From assembly GCA_958295935.1 (NCBI GenBank), contig OY282385.1:1-64000 (forward strand): a stretch of DNA of 64,000 bases, given 5' to 3'. The position numbers were made by a program, and so were the translations under genes. The notes beneath the pieces are model-generated. The model was not told the origin of the DNA and ran no database searches. It was given only the letters and a program-made list of their open reading frames with translations. Position 1 is the first letter of the stretch, and each line of letters starts with the position of its first letter. Shown here piece after piece: positions 45,054 to 51,278 of this stretch. This DNA comes from an uncultured Dehalococcoidia bacterium. Lineage in GTDB: Bacteria; Chloroflexota; Dehalococcoidia; Lucifugimonadales; Lucifugimonadaceae.

Positions 45054-45204
45054 GTCCGTGGGTTGCGCGGGCTGCGGGCGTGTTGATACGGGGGTCGTGG
45101 AGGATGTAAACTTTAGGCCACTTACTGCTCAACTTCGTTCGTAGACAGCGCGCCGGGTGCGCTTCTTTGCGCCGGCCGTTTGGATTTTCGAGGACCTACC
45201 CATC

Positions 45205-45558
45205 ATGGATGCGCGCCAGATATTGGATATAAAGCCTTCGGATGCGATGGAGGAGTTTCGTCCTGGGGACACGGTGATAGTGAACGTGCGGATTCGCGAG
45301 GGTGAGCGGGAGCGTGTGCAGGCATATCAGGGCAACGTGATCGTGGGTTCTCACCGGAAGGATCATATTCCTCAGCCTGGGGCTACTTTCACGGTGCGGC
45401 GCGTGTCTTACGGGGTGGGGGTGGAGCGGATATTTCCGTTGTGCTCGCCGATGATCGAGTCGGTGAAGGTGACGCGTCGGGGCAAGGTGCGCAGGGCCCG
45501 GCTGTTCTATCTGCGCGGTCTTACGGGTCGGAAGGCTCGTATCAAGGAGCGCCGCTAG
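45205..45558 (+). CDS. rplS: 50S ribosomal protein L19
   Basis: A 117-residue protein located at the 30S-50S interface. [13 protein letters not shown], the conserved [12 protein letters not shown] and the basic C-terminal [14 protein letters not shown] are hallmark. The ATG at 45205 gives the normal length. Follows trmD. Confidence 0.95.
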
Positions 45559-45724: not shown

Positions 45725-46555
45725 ATGGCAAATATATTAGTACGTCTGGTATGGGTTTTCGCCCTGTCTCTATCGCTGAGCCTTGTGGTTTTTGTGGCGT
45801 GGATGCTGGGGCAGCCTTCCGGGACGATCAAGGGTTATGAGGATTGGTTCTGCGACGCTCATCCTGAGTTGTGCAGGACGATGTCGACTCCCACTTCCCA
45901 GCCTACTGCGACGACGTCTCCGGGGGTTGCGGTGACGCCGCAGGGGGTTTCGTATCCTCGCGCTGTTTCGGCGGAGGAGTTGAAGGGTCTCTGCAAATAT
46001 TCCGGTGAGTTGGGATCCAGTTCCACTGTAAAGCGTACAAAGCATTATGAAGAAGTGGACGGTCGATTTGAGCTTGTGAGAGAGGACATGTCTATCAGTT
46101 CTATAGATGCGAACTTGAACATGCAGTGGACGTTCATAGATGAGAACGGGGTTAAATATTTTGAGACATATTACGTTGATGGCTTTACTTATACTCGCGT
46201 CAGTGAAGATGAGGCCGATGGTTGGAACGTGGAGGCGTCTCCCGGGTTCTGGGGCGATCTGATACCCGACGCCGACGACCCTGTGGGACCGACCGGTCGG
46301 GTTATCGATCTGCCCGATGGGTCTGACACGGTATGTGCGCACTCGCCTGAGGACTTGGAGGACGTTACGGACTATGGTATGGAGATGTTGGATGGAGTGC
46401 GGGTCAGGCACGTGGGCGTTACTCTGAAACCTCGTCCCTACGATCGGTCACAGATGATCGTAGAGTACTGGGTGGATTTGGACGGTCAGGGGGTCCAAAT
46501 CAAGGACACCCGGATCTGGGCTTCAAGGGGCGAATACCCTGACGCGTCGGTCTGA
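45725..46555 (+). CDS. Membrane-anchored protein of a tandem triplicated family, copy 1
   Basis: A 276-residue product with a hydrophobic N-terminal segment (about residues 5-28) instead of a lipobox, then a Ser/Thr-rich linker and the body shared with copies 2 and 3, including YSGELGSSSTV, HYEEVDGRFEL, the DLPDGSDTVC stretch and YGMEMLDGVRVRHVG. GAGGAGG lies seven bases before the ATG. The pattern of a DGVRVRHVG strand followed by a VEYWVD strand resembles LppX/LprAFG-type lipoproteins, a weak match. An indel near 46540 shifts the frame, so the last 36 or so residues present in the other copies are replaced by a short end. Confidence 0.8.
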   Translation: MANILVRLVWVFALSLSLSLVVFVAWMLGQPSGTIKGYEDWFCDAHPELCRTMSTPTSQPTATTSPGVAVTPQGVSYPRAVSAEELKGLCKYSGELGSSSTVKRTKHYEEVDGRFELVREDMSISSIDANLNMQWTFIDENGVKYFETYYVDGFTYTRVSEDEADGWNVEASPGFWGDLIPDADDPVGPTGRVIDLPDGSDTVCAHSPEDLEDVTDYGMEMLDGVRVRHVGVTLKPRPYDRSQMIVEYWVDLDGQGVQIKDTRIWASRGEYPDASV

Positions 46556-46657
46556 GGGGATTACTACATCTATAGATCGTGACCCGTCCATTTTGATAAC
46601 GGCGCCGGCGGGCGCTGCTACGCCTGCGGCGGGGCCGTGAGGGGGTGGGTTGCGGTC

Positions 46658-47695
46658 ATGCGCGGCTTTTGGGGGCTGACGTCGGGAGTGCGGTTGCAGT
46701 CTTGCGGTTCCATCTTGCCGGGGTTGTTTCGAGTTGGACTGCTGACGATCGCAGGAATCGTCGTGCTTGCAGCCCTACCCGGTTGCGGGACGATTCGAGA
46801 GGGAGCTGCGCCGGGGGGTGATGCTGTGGCGGGGACGCAGGTCGTTTTGGTGAGTTCGCCGGAGGGTGAGGGGACGGCTACTGCGACGACGTCTCCGGAG
46901 GTTGTGGCGACGCCGCAGGGGGTTGTATCCACGGCTACAGCGGAAGCTTCGCCTCGGGCTGGCGAGGCCACGGCCACGGCTACGGCTTCACCGGAGGTTT
47001 CGTATCCGCGCTCTGTTTCGGCGGAGGATTTGAAGGGTCTCTGCAAATATTCCGGTGAGTTGGGATCCAGTTCCACTGTGATACGTACAAAGTATTATGA
47101 AGAAGTGGACGGTCGATTTGAATTTGTGAGAGAGGACATGTCTATCGGTTCCATAGATGCGAACTTGAACATGAACTGGGTGTCCATGGATGCGAACGGG
47201 GTTAAATATAGCGAGACATATTACGTTGATGGCTTTACTTATTATAGCGTGAGTGAAGATGAGGCCGATGGTTGGAGGGTGGAGGCGTCTCCCGGGTTCT
47301 GGGACTATCTGATACCCGACTCCGACGACCCTGTGGGACCGACCGGTCGGGTTATCGATCTTCCCGATGGGTCTGACACGGTATGTGAGCACTCGCCTGA
47401 GGACTTGGAGGACGTTACGGACTATGGCATGGAGATGTTGGACGGAGTGAGAGTCCGGCACGTGGGGGCTAATTTGAAACCTCATCTTTTCCATAGGGCT
47501 TGGACGCAGATGATCGTGGAGTACTGGGTGGATTCGGACGGTCAGCTGGTCCAAACCAAGGACACCGAGATTGGGGCTTCAAGCGGTGAATACCCTGCGA
47601 GTCGGTCTGAGGCGGTTTCTACATTTATAGATCGTGATCCGTCCATTTTGATAACGGCGCCGGCGGGCGCGGCTACGCCTGCGGCGGGGCCGTGA
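46658..47695 (+). CDS. Secreted lipoprotein of the triplicated family, copy 2
   Basis: A 345-residue protein with a signal peptide and lipobox LPGC at about residue 42, then a low-complexity Ala/Thr/Glu-rich linker of roughly 70 residues and the conserved body with YSGELGSSSTVI and the DLPDGSDTVC stretch. The C-terminus ends ITAPAGAATPAAGP. The ATG is used; an in-frame GTG lies at 46637. The body is about as long as in copy 1, but the N-terminus is unrelated to that of copy 1. Two Cys are conserved in the body (near GLC and TVC) and could form a disulfide. Confidence 0.85.
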   Translation: MRGFWGLTSGVRLQSCGSILPGLFRVGLLTIAGIVVLAALPGCGTIREGAAPGGDAVAGTQVVLVSSPEGEGTATATTSPEVVATPQGVVSTATAEASPRAGEATATATASPEVSYPRSVSAEDLKGLCKYSGELGSSSTVIRTKYYEEVDGRFEFVREDMSIGSIDANLNMNWVSMDANGVKYSETYYVDGFTYYSVSEDEADGWRVEASPGFWDYLIPDSDDPVGPTGRVIDLPDGSDTVCEHSPEDLEDVTDYGMEMLDGVRVRHVGANLKPHLFHRAWTQMIVEYWVDSDGQLVQTKDTEIGASSGEYPASRSEAVSTFIDRDPSILITAPAGAATPAAGP

Positions 47696-47712
47696 GGGGG
47701 TGGGTTGGGGTC

Positions 47713-48672
47713 ATGCGCGGTTTTTGGGGTCTAACGTCGGGTGTGCGGTTACAGTTTTGCGGTTTCATCTTGCCGGGGTTGTTTCGGGTTGGGCTGCTGG
47801 CGGTCTCAGGAATCGTCGTGCTTGCAGCCCTACCCGGTTGCGGGACGCTGCCGGAGGGAGCTGTGGCGGGGGGTGATGCTGCTGCGGGGACGGCTTCACC
47901 GGAGGTTTCATATCCGCGCTCTGTTTCGGCGGAGGATTTGAAGGGTCTCTGCAAATATACCAGTGAGCCGGGAGCCAATTCCACTGTACAGCGTAGAAAG
48001 CATTATGAAGAAGTGGACGGTCGATTTGAGCTTGTGGGAGAAGACATGATTATCATGTCTATAGATGCGAACTTGAACGTGCACTGGGTGTTCATGGATG
48101 AGAACGGGGTTAAATATGACGAGACATATTACGTTGATGGCTTTACTTATAATTGGGTGAGTGAAGATGAGGCCGATGGTTGGAACGTGGAGGCGTCTCC
48201 CGGGTTCTGGGGCGATCTGATACCTGACGCCGACGACCCTGTGGGACCGGTGGGCGGGGTTGGCGGCCCGTCGGATGGAACCGGCTCGACGCCCGGGGGC
48301 GACTCTGAGGGATCTGTGGGCCCGACCGGTCGGGTTGTGGATCTGCCCGATGGGTCTGACACGGTATGTTTGCACTCGCCGGACGAATTGGAGGACGTTA
48401 CGGACTATGGCATGGAGATGTTGGATGGAGTGCGGGTCAGGCACGTGGGGGCTACTGTGAAATCTCGTCCCTACGATTGGGCGCAGATGCTCGTGGAGTA
48501 CTGGGTGGATTCGGAGGGACAGTCGGTCCAAATCAAGCACACCGATATCTGGGCTTCTAGGGGTGAATACCCTGCGAGTCGGTCTGAGGGGATTTCTACA
48601 TCTATAGATCGTGATCCGACCATTTTGATAACGGCGCCGGCGGGCGCTGCTACGCCTGCGGCGGGGCCGTGA
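47713..48672 (+). CDS. Secreted lipoprotein of the triplicated family, copy 3
   Basis: A 319-residue lipoprotein with the same signal peptide (MRGFWGLTSGVRL start, LPGC lipobox) and body as copy 2, but with a shorter linker and a Gly/Ser-rich insert of about 25 residues (GGVGGPSDGTGSTPGG near 48251-48300) before the DLPDGSDTVC stretch. A GTG at 47692 overlaps the copy 2 stop. The reading frame is intact, suggesting selection. Confidence 0.85.
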   Translation: MRGFWGLTSGVRLQFCGFILPGLFRVGLLAVSGIVVLAALPGCGTLPEGAVAGGDAAAGTASPEVSYPRSVSAEDLKGLCKYTSEPGANSTVQRRKHYEEVDGRFELVGEDMIIMSIDANLNVHWVFMDENGVKYDETYYVDGFTYNWVSEDEADGWNVEASPGFWGDLIPDADDPVGPVGGVGGPSDGTGSTPGGDSEGSVGPTGRVVDLPDGSDTVCLHSPDELEDVTDYGMEMLDGVRVRHVGATVKSRPYDWAQMLVEYWVDSEGQSVQIKHTDIWASRGEYPASRSEGISTSIDRDPTILITAPAGAATPAAGP

Positions 48673-48770
48673 GGGGGGGTGGGTTGCGGTCATGCGCGGC
48701 TTTTGGGGTCTAACATCGGGTGTGCGGTTACAGTTTTGCCGCGCCACAGTGCCGGGGTTGTTTCGAGTTG
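48669..48770 (+). pseudogene. Fourth copy of the family's 5' leader, fused to the priA start
   Basis: The bases from 48669 match, nearly without gaps, the sequence around the ATG of copies 2 and 3, encoding MRGFWGLTSGVRL again, and similarity ends at TTTCGAGTTG, which includes the TTG start of priA at 48768. It is either a truncated fourth copy or the source segment of the duplicated leader. It adds no complete protein. Confidence 0.75.
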
Positions 48771-51278
48771 CGCTACGCAGAGGTGGCGGTCGATCTGCCG
48801 ACCAGCCACTCGGAGACCTTCACATACTCTATTCCCGACCAGCTGGTCGTGTCTCCGGGGGATCTCGTGTGGTCGCCTTTTGGGGCTCGTTCGCTACAGG
48901 GAATCGTGTTTGAGACCGGTGGGGAGTCGGAGGTCGAGCGGACTCGTGAGATCATCCGTGTGGCGGAGGGGGGGCCGTTCATCGATCCGGTTCGGTTGAT
49001 GCTGGCGCGTTGGGTGGCGTCTTACTATCGTACGGGCCTGTATGCGGCTGCCAGCGCTATGCTGCCGCCCGGCTCATCCACCCGTCTGCGTTGGTGGCTG
49101 GAGCGGGCTGAGTTTCCGCCGTTCGAGGGGGAGCTGTTGCGGCCGCGGGAGCGTCGTGCACTGGACTACGTGCCTCCGGGCGGGCGGGTCAGGCGGGACC
49201 GGGTGATTCGTAAGCTGGGCAGGGGCGGTTTGGGGGTTGTGGAGCGGTTGGTGCGTCGGGGCTATCTTGTGATGACGTCGTCGTGGGAACGTCCTCGCGT
49301 CAAGGCTCGTTACGCGGCGTCGGTGGAGTTGGGGGTTGCGGCTGAGGAGGCTCTGAGGGCTGCCGGGGTTTATCGCGGCGGTTCCAGCAGGCGCCGGGCG
49401 GATCTGCTTGAGTGGCTTGCCGAGGGGAATGGCGGGGAGACTCGCGCTGAGTTGGGTAGGCGCTTTGGCGTTTCTGCGGTGAAGGGCGTGTTGGCTGCGG
49501 GCCTGGCCAGGCTGGAGCGGGTGCGCGTGGAGCGGGATCCTCTGGAGGGGTATGCGGTGCAGCGTCGGATTCCTAACGATCCGACGAGTGAGCAGGCTGC
49601 GGCTATCGGGGAGATCACGCGTGCGCTGGGTCTCTCCGGTGCAGGACCACGCTCGGCTGACGGCGGTCAGGAGGGGGTTGAGGGGGAGCGCGACGGTAAG
49701 AAGGCCTTTCTTCTGTACGGGGTGACGGGCAGCGGTAAGACGGAGGTTTATCTGCGCGCGGTGGATGCCTGCCTGAAGCTGGGCCGGCGTGCGCTGGTGC
49801 TGGTGCCTGAGATCGCTCTCACGCCTCAGACGCTTGAGCGTTTTGCATCTCGTTTTCCGGGGAAGATAGCGCTTCAGCACTCCGGGCTGTCGGATGGGCA
49901 GCGCTATGACCAGTGGCGGCGTATTCGGTCGGGAGATTTCCCTATCGTTCTTGGCTCACGCGGGGCTGTGTTTGCGCCGGTTGAGAATCTGGGTTTGTTG
50001 GTGATGGACGAGGAGCATGAGTGGACGTACAAGCAGCACGACCAGACGCCTCGTTACCATGCGCGGGCGGTTGCGGAGCGGTTGTGCAGGTTGTCGGGGG
50101 CTGTTCTGGTCCTTGGGAGCGCTACGCCGGATGCGGTTACTTACAGGCGGGCCTGCCGCGGCGGTCTGGGTCTTTTGAGGCTGCCTCACCGGGTCGTTTC
50201 GGATGGTGGGGGGAGGCCGTCGGGCCGGCCCGGTGCGCGGGCGGAGGTGCGGGTGGTGGACATGCGGGATGAGTTGCGTGCGGGGCATACGGAGATGTTG
50301 AGCAGGCCATTGATAGAGGCGATGCGCGTTTCGCTGGATTCCGGGGGAAGGGCGATCCTGTTCATCAACCGTCGTGGGTCTGCGTCGTTCGTGCAGTGCC
50401 GGGATTGCGGGGGTATACGCAGGTGTCGGCGTTGCGATACGTCTCTTACGTATCATCGGTCTGAGGGGGATTCGACGCCGGACATGCTGGTGTGCCACTA
50501 CTGCAACTATCGAATACGGGCGGAGCGGGGTTGCCGGGATTGCGGGGGTCTTCAGGTCAGGCGGTTGGCTCCCGGGACTCAGGCGGCCGCGGCCGCCGTG
50601 GCGTCGTACTTTCCGAGAGCGGGGGCCATTCGGTGGGACTCGGACTCGGCGAGGACTGCCAGGGACCATGCTCGAATCGTGGAGGAGTTCGAGCGGGGGG
50701 AGGCGCGCGTGCTGGTGGGCACGCAGATGGTGGCAAAGGGGCTGGACATTCCGTCGGTGACGCTCGTCGGGGTGTTGTCGGCGGATACCGGGCTTGCGAT
50801 ACCGGACTACCGGTCGAGCGAGCGAACGTTCCAGTTGCTGGCGCAGGTCGTGGGTCGTTCGGGTCGAGGTTTGAGGGGCGGGCGTGCGATCATCCAGACT
50901 TTTCAGCCCGGTCACTATGCGATCAGTGCGGCTGCCGCTCAGGACTATGAGTCTTTCTATGAGTCTGAGATCTCGATGCGCAGGATGTTGGCGAATCCGC
51001 CGTTTACCCGTTTGATCCGGCTGACGTACTCTTCGTCGGATATGGACGAGGCGCACGAGACGGCGCGTAGCATCGCAGCCCGCTTGCGGGCCGACCGTTC
51101 GAGGACGGGGCTGACGGACACGCTCGTTTCGGGGCCGACTCCCGGATTTCCGTTGCGAGTGCGTGACACGTACCGTTGGCACATTGCGCTCAAGGGGCCG
51201 CGGCCGGAGCGTTTGTTGGATGCGTCTCCGCCGGGGCGGGATTGCGTGGTTGACGTGGATCCCGTGAGTCTGGCGTGA
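48768..51278 (+). CDS. priA: Primosomal helicase PriA
   Basis: An 836-residue superfamily 2 helicase that restarts stalled forks. An N-terminal DNA-binding domain (AEVAVDLPTSHSETFTYSI) is followed by the helicase with Walker A GVTGSGKTEVYL, VPEIALTPQ, and DEEHEWTYKQHD. The zinc-binding insert has paired Cys (CRDCGG, CRRCDTS, CHYCNY, CRDCGG), then GTQMVAKGLDIP. The start is a TTG at 48768, inside a segment copied from the neighbouring lipoprotein genes; the conserved N-terminal strand starts right after it. Full length is normal. Confidence 0.95.
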   Translation: MRYAEVAVDLPTSHSETFTYSIPDQLVVSPGDLVWSPFGARSLQGIVFETGGESEVERTREIIRVAEGGPFIDPVRLMLARWVASYYRTGLYAAASAMLPPGSSTRLRWWLERAEFPPFEGELLRPRERRALDYVPPGGRVRRDRVIRKLGRGGLGVVERLVRRGYLVMTSSWERPRVKARYAASVELGVAAEEALRAAGVYRGGSSRRRADLLEWLAEGNGGETRAELGRRFGVSAVKGVLAAGLARLERVRVERDPLEGYAVQRRIPNDPTSEQAAAIGEITRALGLSGAGPRSADGGQEGVEGERDGKKAFLLYGVTGSGKTEVYLRAVDACLKLGRRALVLVPEIALTPQTLERFASRFPGKIALQHSGLSDGQRYDQWRRIRSGDFPIVLGSRGAVFAPVENLGLLVMDEEHEWTYKQHDQTPRYHARAVAERLCRLSGAVLVLGSATPDAVTYRRACRGGLGLLRLPHRVVSDGGGRPSGRPGARAEVRVVDMRDELRAGHTEMLSRPLIEAMRVSLDSGGRAILFINRRGSASFVQCRDCGGIRRCRRCDTSLTYHRSEGDSTPDMLVCHYCNYRIRAERGCRDCGGLQVRRLAPGTQAAAAAVASYFPRAGAIRWDSDSARTARDHARIVEEFERGEARVLVGTQMVAKGLDIPSVTLVGVLSADTGLAIPDYRSSERTFQLLAQVVGRSGRGLRGGRAIIQTFQPGHYAISAAAAQDYESFYESEISMRRMLANPPFTRLIRLTYSSSDMDEAHETARSIAARLRADRSRTGLTDTLVSGPTPGFPLRVRDTYRWHIALKGPRPERLLDASPPGRDCVVDVDPVSLA

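Follow-up and report, generated by a model that had tools for sequence, protein, structure and literature searches.

The rplS–priA interval of the window (the whole stretch of DNA analysed here, 64,000 nt from an uncultured Dehalococcoidia bacterium) contains three neighbouring genes on the same strand that encode a common body of approximately 200 aa, the bodies spanning 45947–48573 (Table 1). Repeat finding identified direct-repeat families of 300, 275, and 201 nt across these genes, each present in three copies, with spacings of approximately 1050 and 908–983 nt. Body DNA is 90.1% identical between copies 1 and 2 and between copies 1 and 3, and 88.2% identical between copies 2 and 3. The linkers of the three copies differ from each other, and the copy 3 body carries a 25-aa GP-rich insertion. 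Assembly collapse of one gene was ruled out as the source of the repeats, because the host genome is a single contig of 2.75 Mb and approximately 10% of sites differ between the copies.

Table 1. Features of the rplS–priA interval and its flanks (window coordinates)
Feature	Position	Strand	Description	Match
rplS	45157..45558	+	Ribosomal protein L19, left flank	Pfam PF01245, E 1e-38
Copy 1 (c1)	45725..46555	+	Unique N-terminal membrane anchor, TP-rich linker, body; tail lost by frameshift	
Body of copy 1	45947..46540	+		
Orphaned copy 1 tail DNA	46541..46641	+	Out of frame, 93% identical to c2 tail	
Leader cassette 1	46641..46837	+	Part of copy 2	
Copy 2 (c2)	46658..47695	+	Lipoprotein (LPG↓C), TA/TP linker, body, tail	
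Body of copy 2	46997..47596	+		
Leader cassette 2	47696..47892	+	Part of copy 3	
Copy 3 (c3)	47713..48672	+	Lipoprotein (LPG↓C), short linker, body, tail	
Body of copy 3	47905..48573	+		
Leader cassette 3	48675..48774	+	Truncated; reaches into priA 5' end	
priA	48720..51278	+	Primosomal protein N', right flank	TIGR00595, E 4.6e-156

The units are joined by a short boundary sequence, CGGGGCCGTGAG, with three exact occurrences in the window (46630, 47685, and 48662) against 0.03 expected by chance. The leader sequence MRGFWGLTSGVRL likewise occurs three times (46641, 47696, and 48675), at the start of copy 2, at the start of copy 3, and in a truncated stretch that enters priA. The first 100 nt are common to all three leaders, and the segment 46641–46837 (cassette 1) is also matched in copy 3. 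The signal peptides of copies 2 and 3 end in a lipobox (...LAALPG↓C). The N-terminus of copy 1 is unrelated to the MRGFWGLTSGVRL leader and consists of a hydrophobic, transmembrane-like segment with no lipobox cysteine. Copy 1 also ends early through a frameshift, and its displaced tail DNA (46541–46641) stays open in another frame. Leader cassette 3 has no hydrophobic core or lipobox (hydropathy 0.8 vs 2.2), and its frame is not that of priA. The most likely interpretation is that it marks either the original junction or the edge of a further unit that has lost its body. An earlier description made from the letters of the window (the sequence-only reading) had recognized the three consecutive genes with their shared body of about 200 residues, the differing linkers, and the contrast between lipoprotein copies 2 and 3 and a membrane-anchored copy 1, and the comparison of the three genes agrees with it on each of these points. 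It had also counted four unit boundaries and a fourth copy of the 5' leader; both counts come down to three in the window, the leader being missing from copy 1.

Little space separates the array genes, which may overlap by GTG/TGA at 46637 and 47692. Scanning for promoters and terminators between them gave nothing above chance; on both counts, co-transcription of the array into priA is plausible. The start codon of priA, for which GTG 48720, TTG 48768, and GTG 48783 are candidates, overlaps with the leader remnant. Comparison with relatives makes TTG 48768 or GTG 48720, in or at the edge of the remnant, the probable start.

The nearest named relatives of the window's priA are metagenome-derived genomes of Dehalococcoidia and other Chloroflexota. 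Of 20 relatives examined, 18 have priA directly after rplS, without a gene-sized gap. In G010, another gene occupies the gap, and in G030 there is no rplS near priA. The G010 gene (L083, 3792–4745) is apparently unrelated to the array and resembles a metallophosphoesterase, as judged from its sequence rather than by a database match; its position suggests that the junction tolerates insertions. Since rplS and priA adjoin in relatives, the array is an insertion at this junction peculiar to the lineage, and the placing of an exported tandem family inside a housekeeping stretch by the sequence-only reading is thereby upheld. Its further description of the family as expanding, and of the locus as an active site of recombination, is not supported by a set of copies that have diverged (dS about 0.14–0.18) and of which the first has a decaying tail. 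None of the close relatives searched, all from outside the genus, carries the array, so a recent change in copy number is not observable.

Over the whole body, dN/dS between copies is 0.5–0.7 at a dS of 0.14–0.18. All three bodies are open and free of stop codons, and the indels within them are multiples of three. The lack of stops, together with an overall dN/dS below 1, suggests that the bodies are under at least weak constraint; by a Fisher test, purifying selection reached significance (p 0.03) for only one of the three pairs of bodies. The two halves of the body differ, dN/dS being about 0.9–1.05 (0.90–1.05) in the N-terminal half and 0.3–0.5 in the C-terminal half. The former value would also be expected if the array were a decaying, largely non-functional duplication under relaxed constraint, as would the frameshifted tail of copy 1, the truncated and out-of-frame leader before priA, and the retention of the genes in no close relative. 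We regard decay as improbable, however, because the bodies have stayed open through approximately 10% divergence with indels only in multiples of three, because the C-terminal half has a low dN/dS, and because the residues that are invariant in the wider family (see below) are retained in all three copies.

Ten codon columns carry three different residues, and multiply hit codons are modestly in excess. Codons that differ in all three copies number 11, equal to the chance expectation (9.7 from independent changes), and body dN/dS is not above 1, so diversifying selection is not claimed and was rejected. Several codons set within conserved stretches differ between copies at two or three of their bases, which could be taken for the work of a diversity-generating retroelement, or similar targeted mutagenesis, acting on hot codons. 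This explanation was rejected as extremely unlikely: there is no reverse transcriptase domain (RVT_1) in the genome by a search whose controls were positive, and the changes occur throughout the body rather than only at the adenines of one template.

Direct searches with the window proteins in Pfam, NCBIfam, PADLOC, and the PDB gave no match, and protein and profile searches of 60 relatives and GTDB contigs gave nothing certain. Among 393 genomes of the class, a profile of the bodies (A2) picked out a single candidate, the lipoprotein P0004 in G375 (E 6.1e-4 for a search of one genome). Its alignment with the profile covers GMEMLDGVRVRHVG...EYWVDSDGQ. Used as the query in its turn, the P0004 body matched two copies of the window (E 1.9e-6 and 5.1e-5). 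It also brought in further family members: a second one in G375, three in tandem in G045, and others in G009, G128, and G497. The family is sparse (9/393 class genomes); it is uncatalogued and unnamed, within the same order. A profile of the window copies aligns with the rest of the family at an hhalign probability of 96.8% (score 68.8; shuffled maximum 23.5).

We aligned the three window copies with eight relatives (alignment A3, 11 sequences). The invariant positions are C16, E73, Y82, G100, W102, C130, W177, and G182 (c2 body numbering), all kept in every window copy. A C-terminal GEPNxIxAP segment is present in all eight relatives (as IERP or ITRP in two); the window retains it in copies 2 and 3 in the degenerate forms DPSILITAP and DPTILITAP, and copy 1 has lost the segment. 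Weak HMM matches in L017 and L120–L124 were low-complexity or unrelated proteins. A PDB profile match to designed 'Cake' beta-propellers and a 'Cell surface protein' was discarded, since it consisted of many copies of one short segment.

A close parallel to the window is the G045 array (contig C159; L137, 715–3392), where three family members, plus an incomplete ORF with only a very weak match where the contig ends, stand in tandem in a genome of the same order, with membrane-anchored leaders as in the window. The G045 bodies are much more diverged than those of the window (62% in DNA), and the chromosomal neighbourhood is different. In G009 (L138, 4399–5655) and G497 (L142, 124–1560), the body is followed by leucine-rich repeats (LTGEIPxxL...) within one open frame.

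The enlarged alignment points to a known superfamily. The comparison set was assembled by searching Chloroflexota of the same order with PF07161; these LppX_LprAFG proteins themselves match LprG (2.3e-15), LprF (1.6e-9), and LppX (5e-7) in the PDB. A3 aligns with this set at an hhalign probability of 94.1% (score 55.7) over 159–190 columns, nearly the whole domain, in a single pairwise comparison, to which the hhalign E-values refer, and not a library search. Column-shuffled controls scored at most 18.1 and the reversed control 14.9, and the score without the window proteins was 55.3. A first hhalign run with the body-only alignment (three near-identical rows) had found no match to LppX, and that null was overturned only once relatives had been added. 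The window-only profile reaches a probability of just 7.8% against the LppX set, and the link is for that reason transitive, leading from the window to the family (96.8%), from the family to LppX-type proteins, and from these to LprG. Kinship with LppX/LprAFG, raised by the sequence-only reading, thus stands by way of the intermediate relatives; by direct search the window proteins have no match. PF07161 at its curated score matches none of the proteins, the window proteins giving no match and the A3 members none at E up to 1, and because this cut-off fails we call the family LppX-like rather than a member. The best reading of these profile comparisons is that it represents a divergent branch of the LppX/LprG (LppX_LprAFG) superfamily.

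With the LppX_LprAFG proteins (PF07161; LprG, LppX, LprF, and LprA of M. tuberculosis) the array family shares a lipoprotein anchor, a body of approximately 200 aa, and, via the relatives, a near full-length profile match that includes the terminal '..I.aP' segment. It differs from them in its two invariant cysteines, which are predicted to form a disulfide, the GEPNxIxAP tail, and the T/P-rich linkers, in the replacement of the lipobox by a transmembrane anchor in some members, and, at the array, in having no MFS or MmpL partner adjacent. A weak local likeness to DUF7537 (PF24381), around GVKYxETYYVDGFTY (E 0.09), covers 29 residues only and scores 12.7 against a cut-off of 31.7 bits. Two AlphaFold2 models made from the window sequences only have a pLDDT of 33–34, the alignment depth being too small, and are unusable; as regards a beta half-barrel with a hydrophobic cavity, only a strand-rich pattern was seen.

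Tandem lipoprotein arrays as such are a familiar kind of arrangement. An example is the lpl cluster of tandem lipoprotein genes in the nuSa-alpha island of S. aureus (PMC4470592); it resembles the present array in organisation only, an analogy for which no sequence relation is claimed, and it lies on a pathogen's genomic island, whereas the array occupies the rplS–priA interval of a Dehalococcoidia-type genome.

Taken with the profile link, the array, its anchor motifs, and its family membership lead us to conclude that the triplet probably encodes extracytoplasmic, membrane-tethered LppX-like proteins that bind lipid or another hydrophobic ligand and were amplified in tandem at the rplS–priA junction. 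LppX and LprG are described as homologous lipid-binding lipoproteins (PMC8427324); LprG has a hydrophobic cleft in which it binds triacylglycerol, and it carries this lipid from one membrane to another (PMC4709180). What we infer about the fold, the ligand, the role, and the order in which recombination took place is as follows. Copies 2 and 3 would be tethered by an N-terminal lipid and copy 1 by its transmembrane helix, with the low-complexity T/P/A linker keeping the body off the membrane. By analogy with LprG and LppX, the body would fold into a beta-rich cup around a lipid or some other hydrophobic ligand, which it would pass on or buffer at the envelope. The array may have begun as one gene inserted between rplS and priA and then duplicated in tandem, with leader and linker segments exchanged and a leader remnant left at the priA edge; the duplication could provide dosage or slightly different ligands.

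No lipid transporter adjoins the array, and in some relatives the body is fused to leucine-rich repeats. Both observations would suit bodies that have kept LppX-like ancestry, lost lipid binding, and serve on their linkers as extracytoplasmic adhesion, sensor, or decoy domains, duplication diversifying the surface. The N-half dN/dS near 1 (0.90–1.05) against 0.3–0.5 in the C-half, the ten codon columns with three different residues, and the modest excess of multiply hit codons lean the same way. The three-way codon count, however, demonstrates no positive selection, and nothing found points to a partner; we consider such a function rather unlikely, if less so than decay. Under the preferred LppX-like reading, the analysis adds an uncatalogued lipoprotein family for uncultured bacteria with a poorly understood envelope, and ties it, via intermediate relatives, to a lipid-carrier superfamily studied mostly in mycobacteria. 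As it stands this is a modest gain in annotation and a real finding.

Leaders and bodies do not always travel together in these genomes. Five lipoproteins at two loci of G375 share leader and linker DNA (78–90% identity over 72–183 nt), and only two of the five have related bodies. In two neighbouring members in G045, the leaders are 88.9% and the bodies 62.3% identical in DNA. The window shows the reverse, one body type with two leader types. This small sample suggests that leaders and bodies may have been shuffled. A broader proposal, that cassettes are recycled throughout the order, near-constant leader and linker DNA being rejoined to different or fast-diverging bodies with the linkers as recombination hinges for surface-domain swaps, is doubtful at present; if leader recycling were general, it would offer such bacteria a simple route to diversify their surface proteins. 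At the G375 loci (L140, 4802–6555; L141, 5297–7628), the DNA for signal peptide and TP linker is nearly the same in neighbouring lipoproteins, whose bodies are mostly unrelated. Beside the lipoprotein pair, L140 (6568–8563) has a run of short membrane proteins, apparently tandem paralogues (IVLWLGVLxAxLGxxFAPxAAxYC...).

A 33-nt linker match found approximately 17 times elsewhere in the host genome was set aside as a simple-sequence coincidence: it is the antisense of GC-rich linkers within a fibronectin-III-like repeat protein. That protein is encoded by a 1945-aa open frame in the same genome (C1, approximately 1.790–1.796 Mb; L165, 3931–9768), in which a long TP-rich stretch is followed by approximately 18 repeats of 261 nt corresponding to fibronectin-III-like domains.
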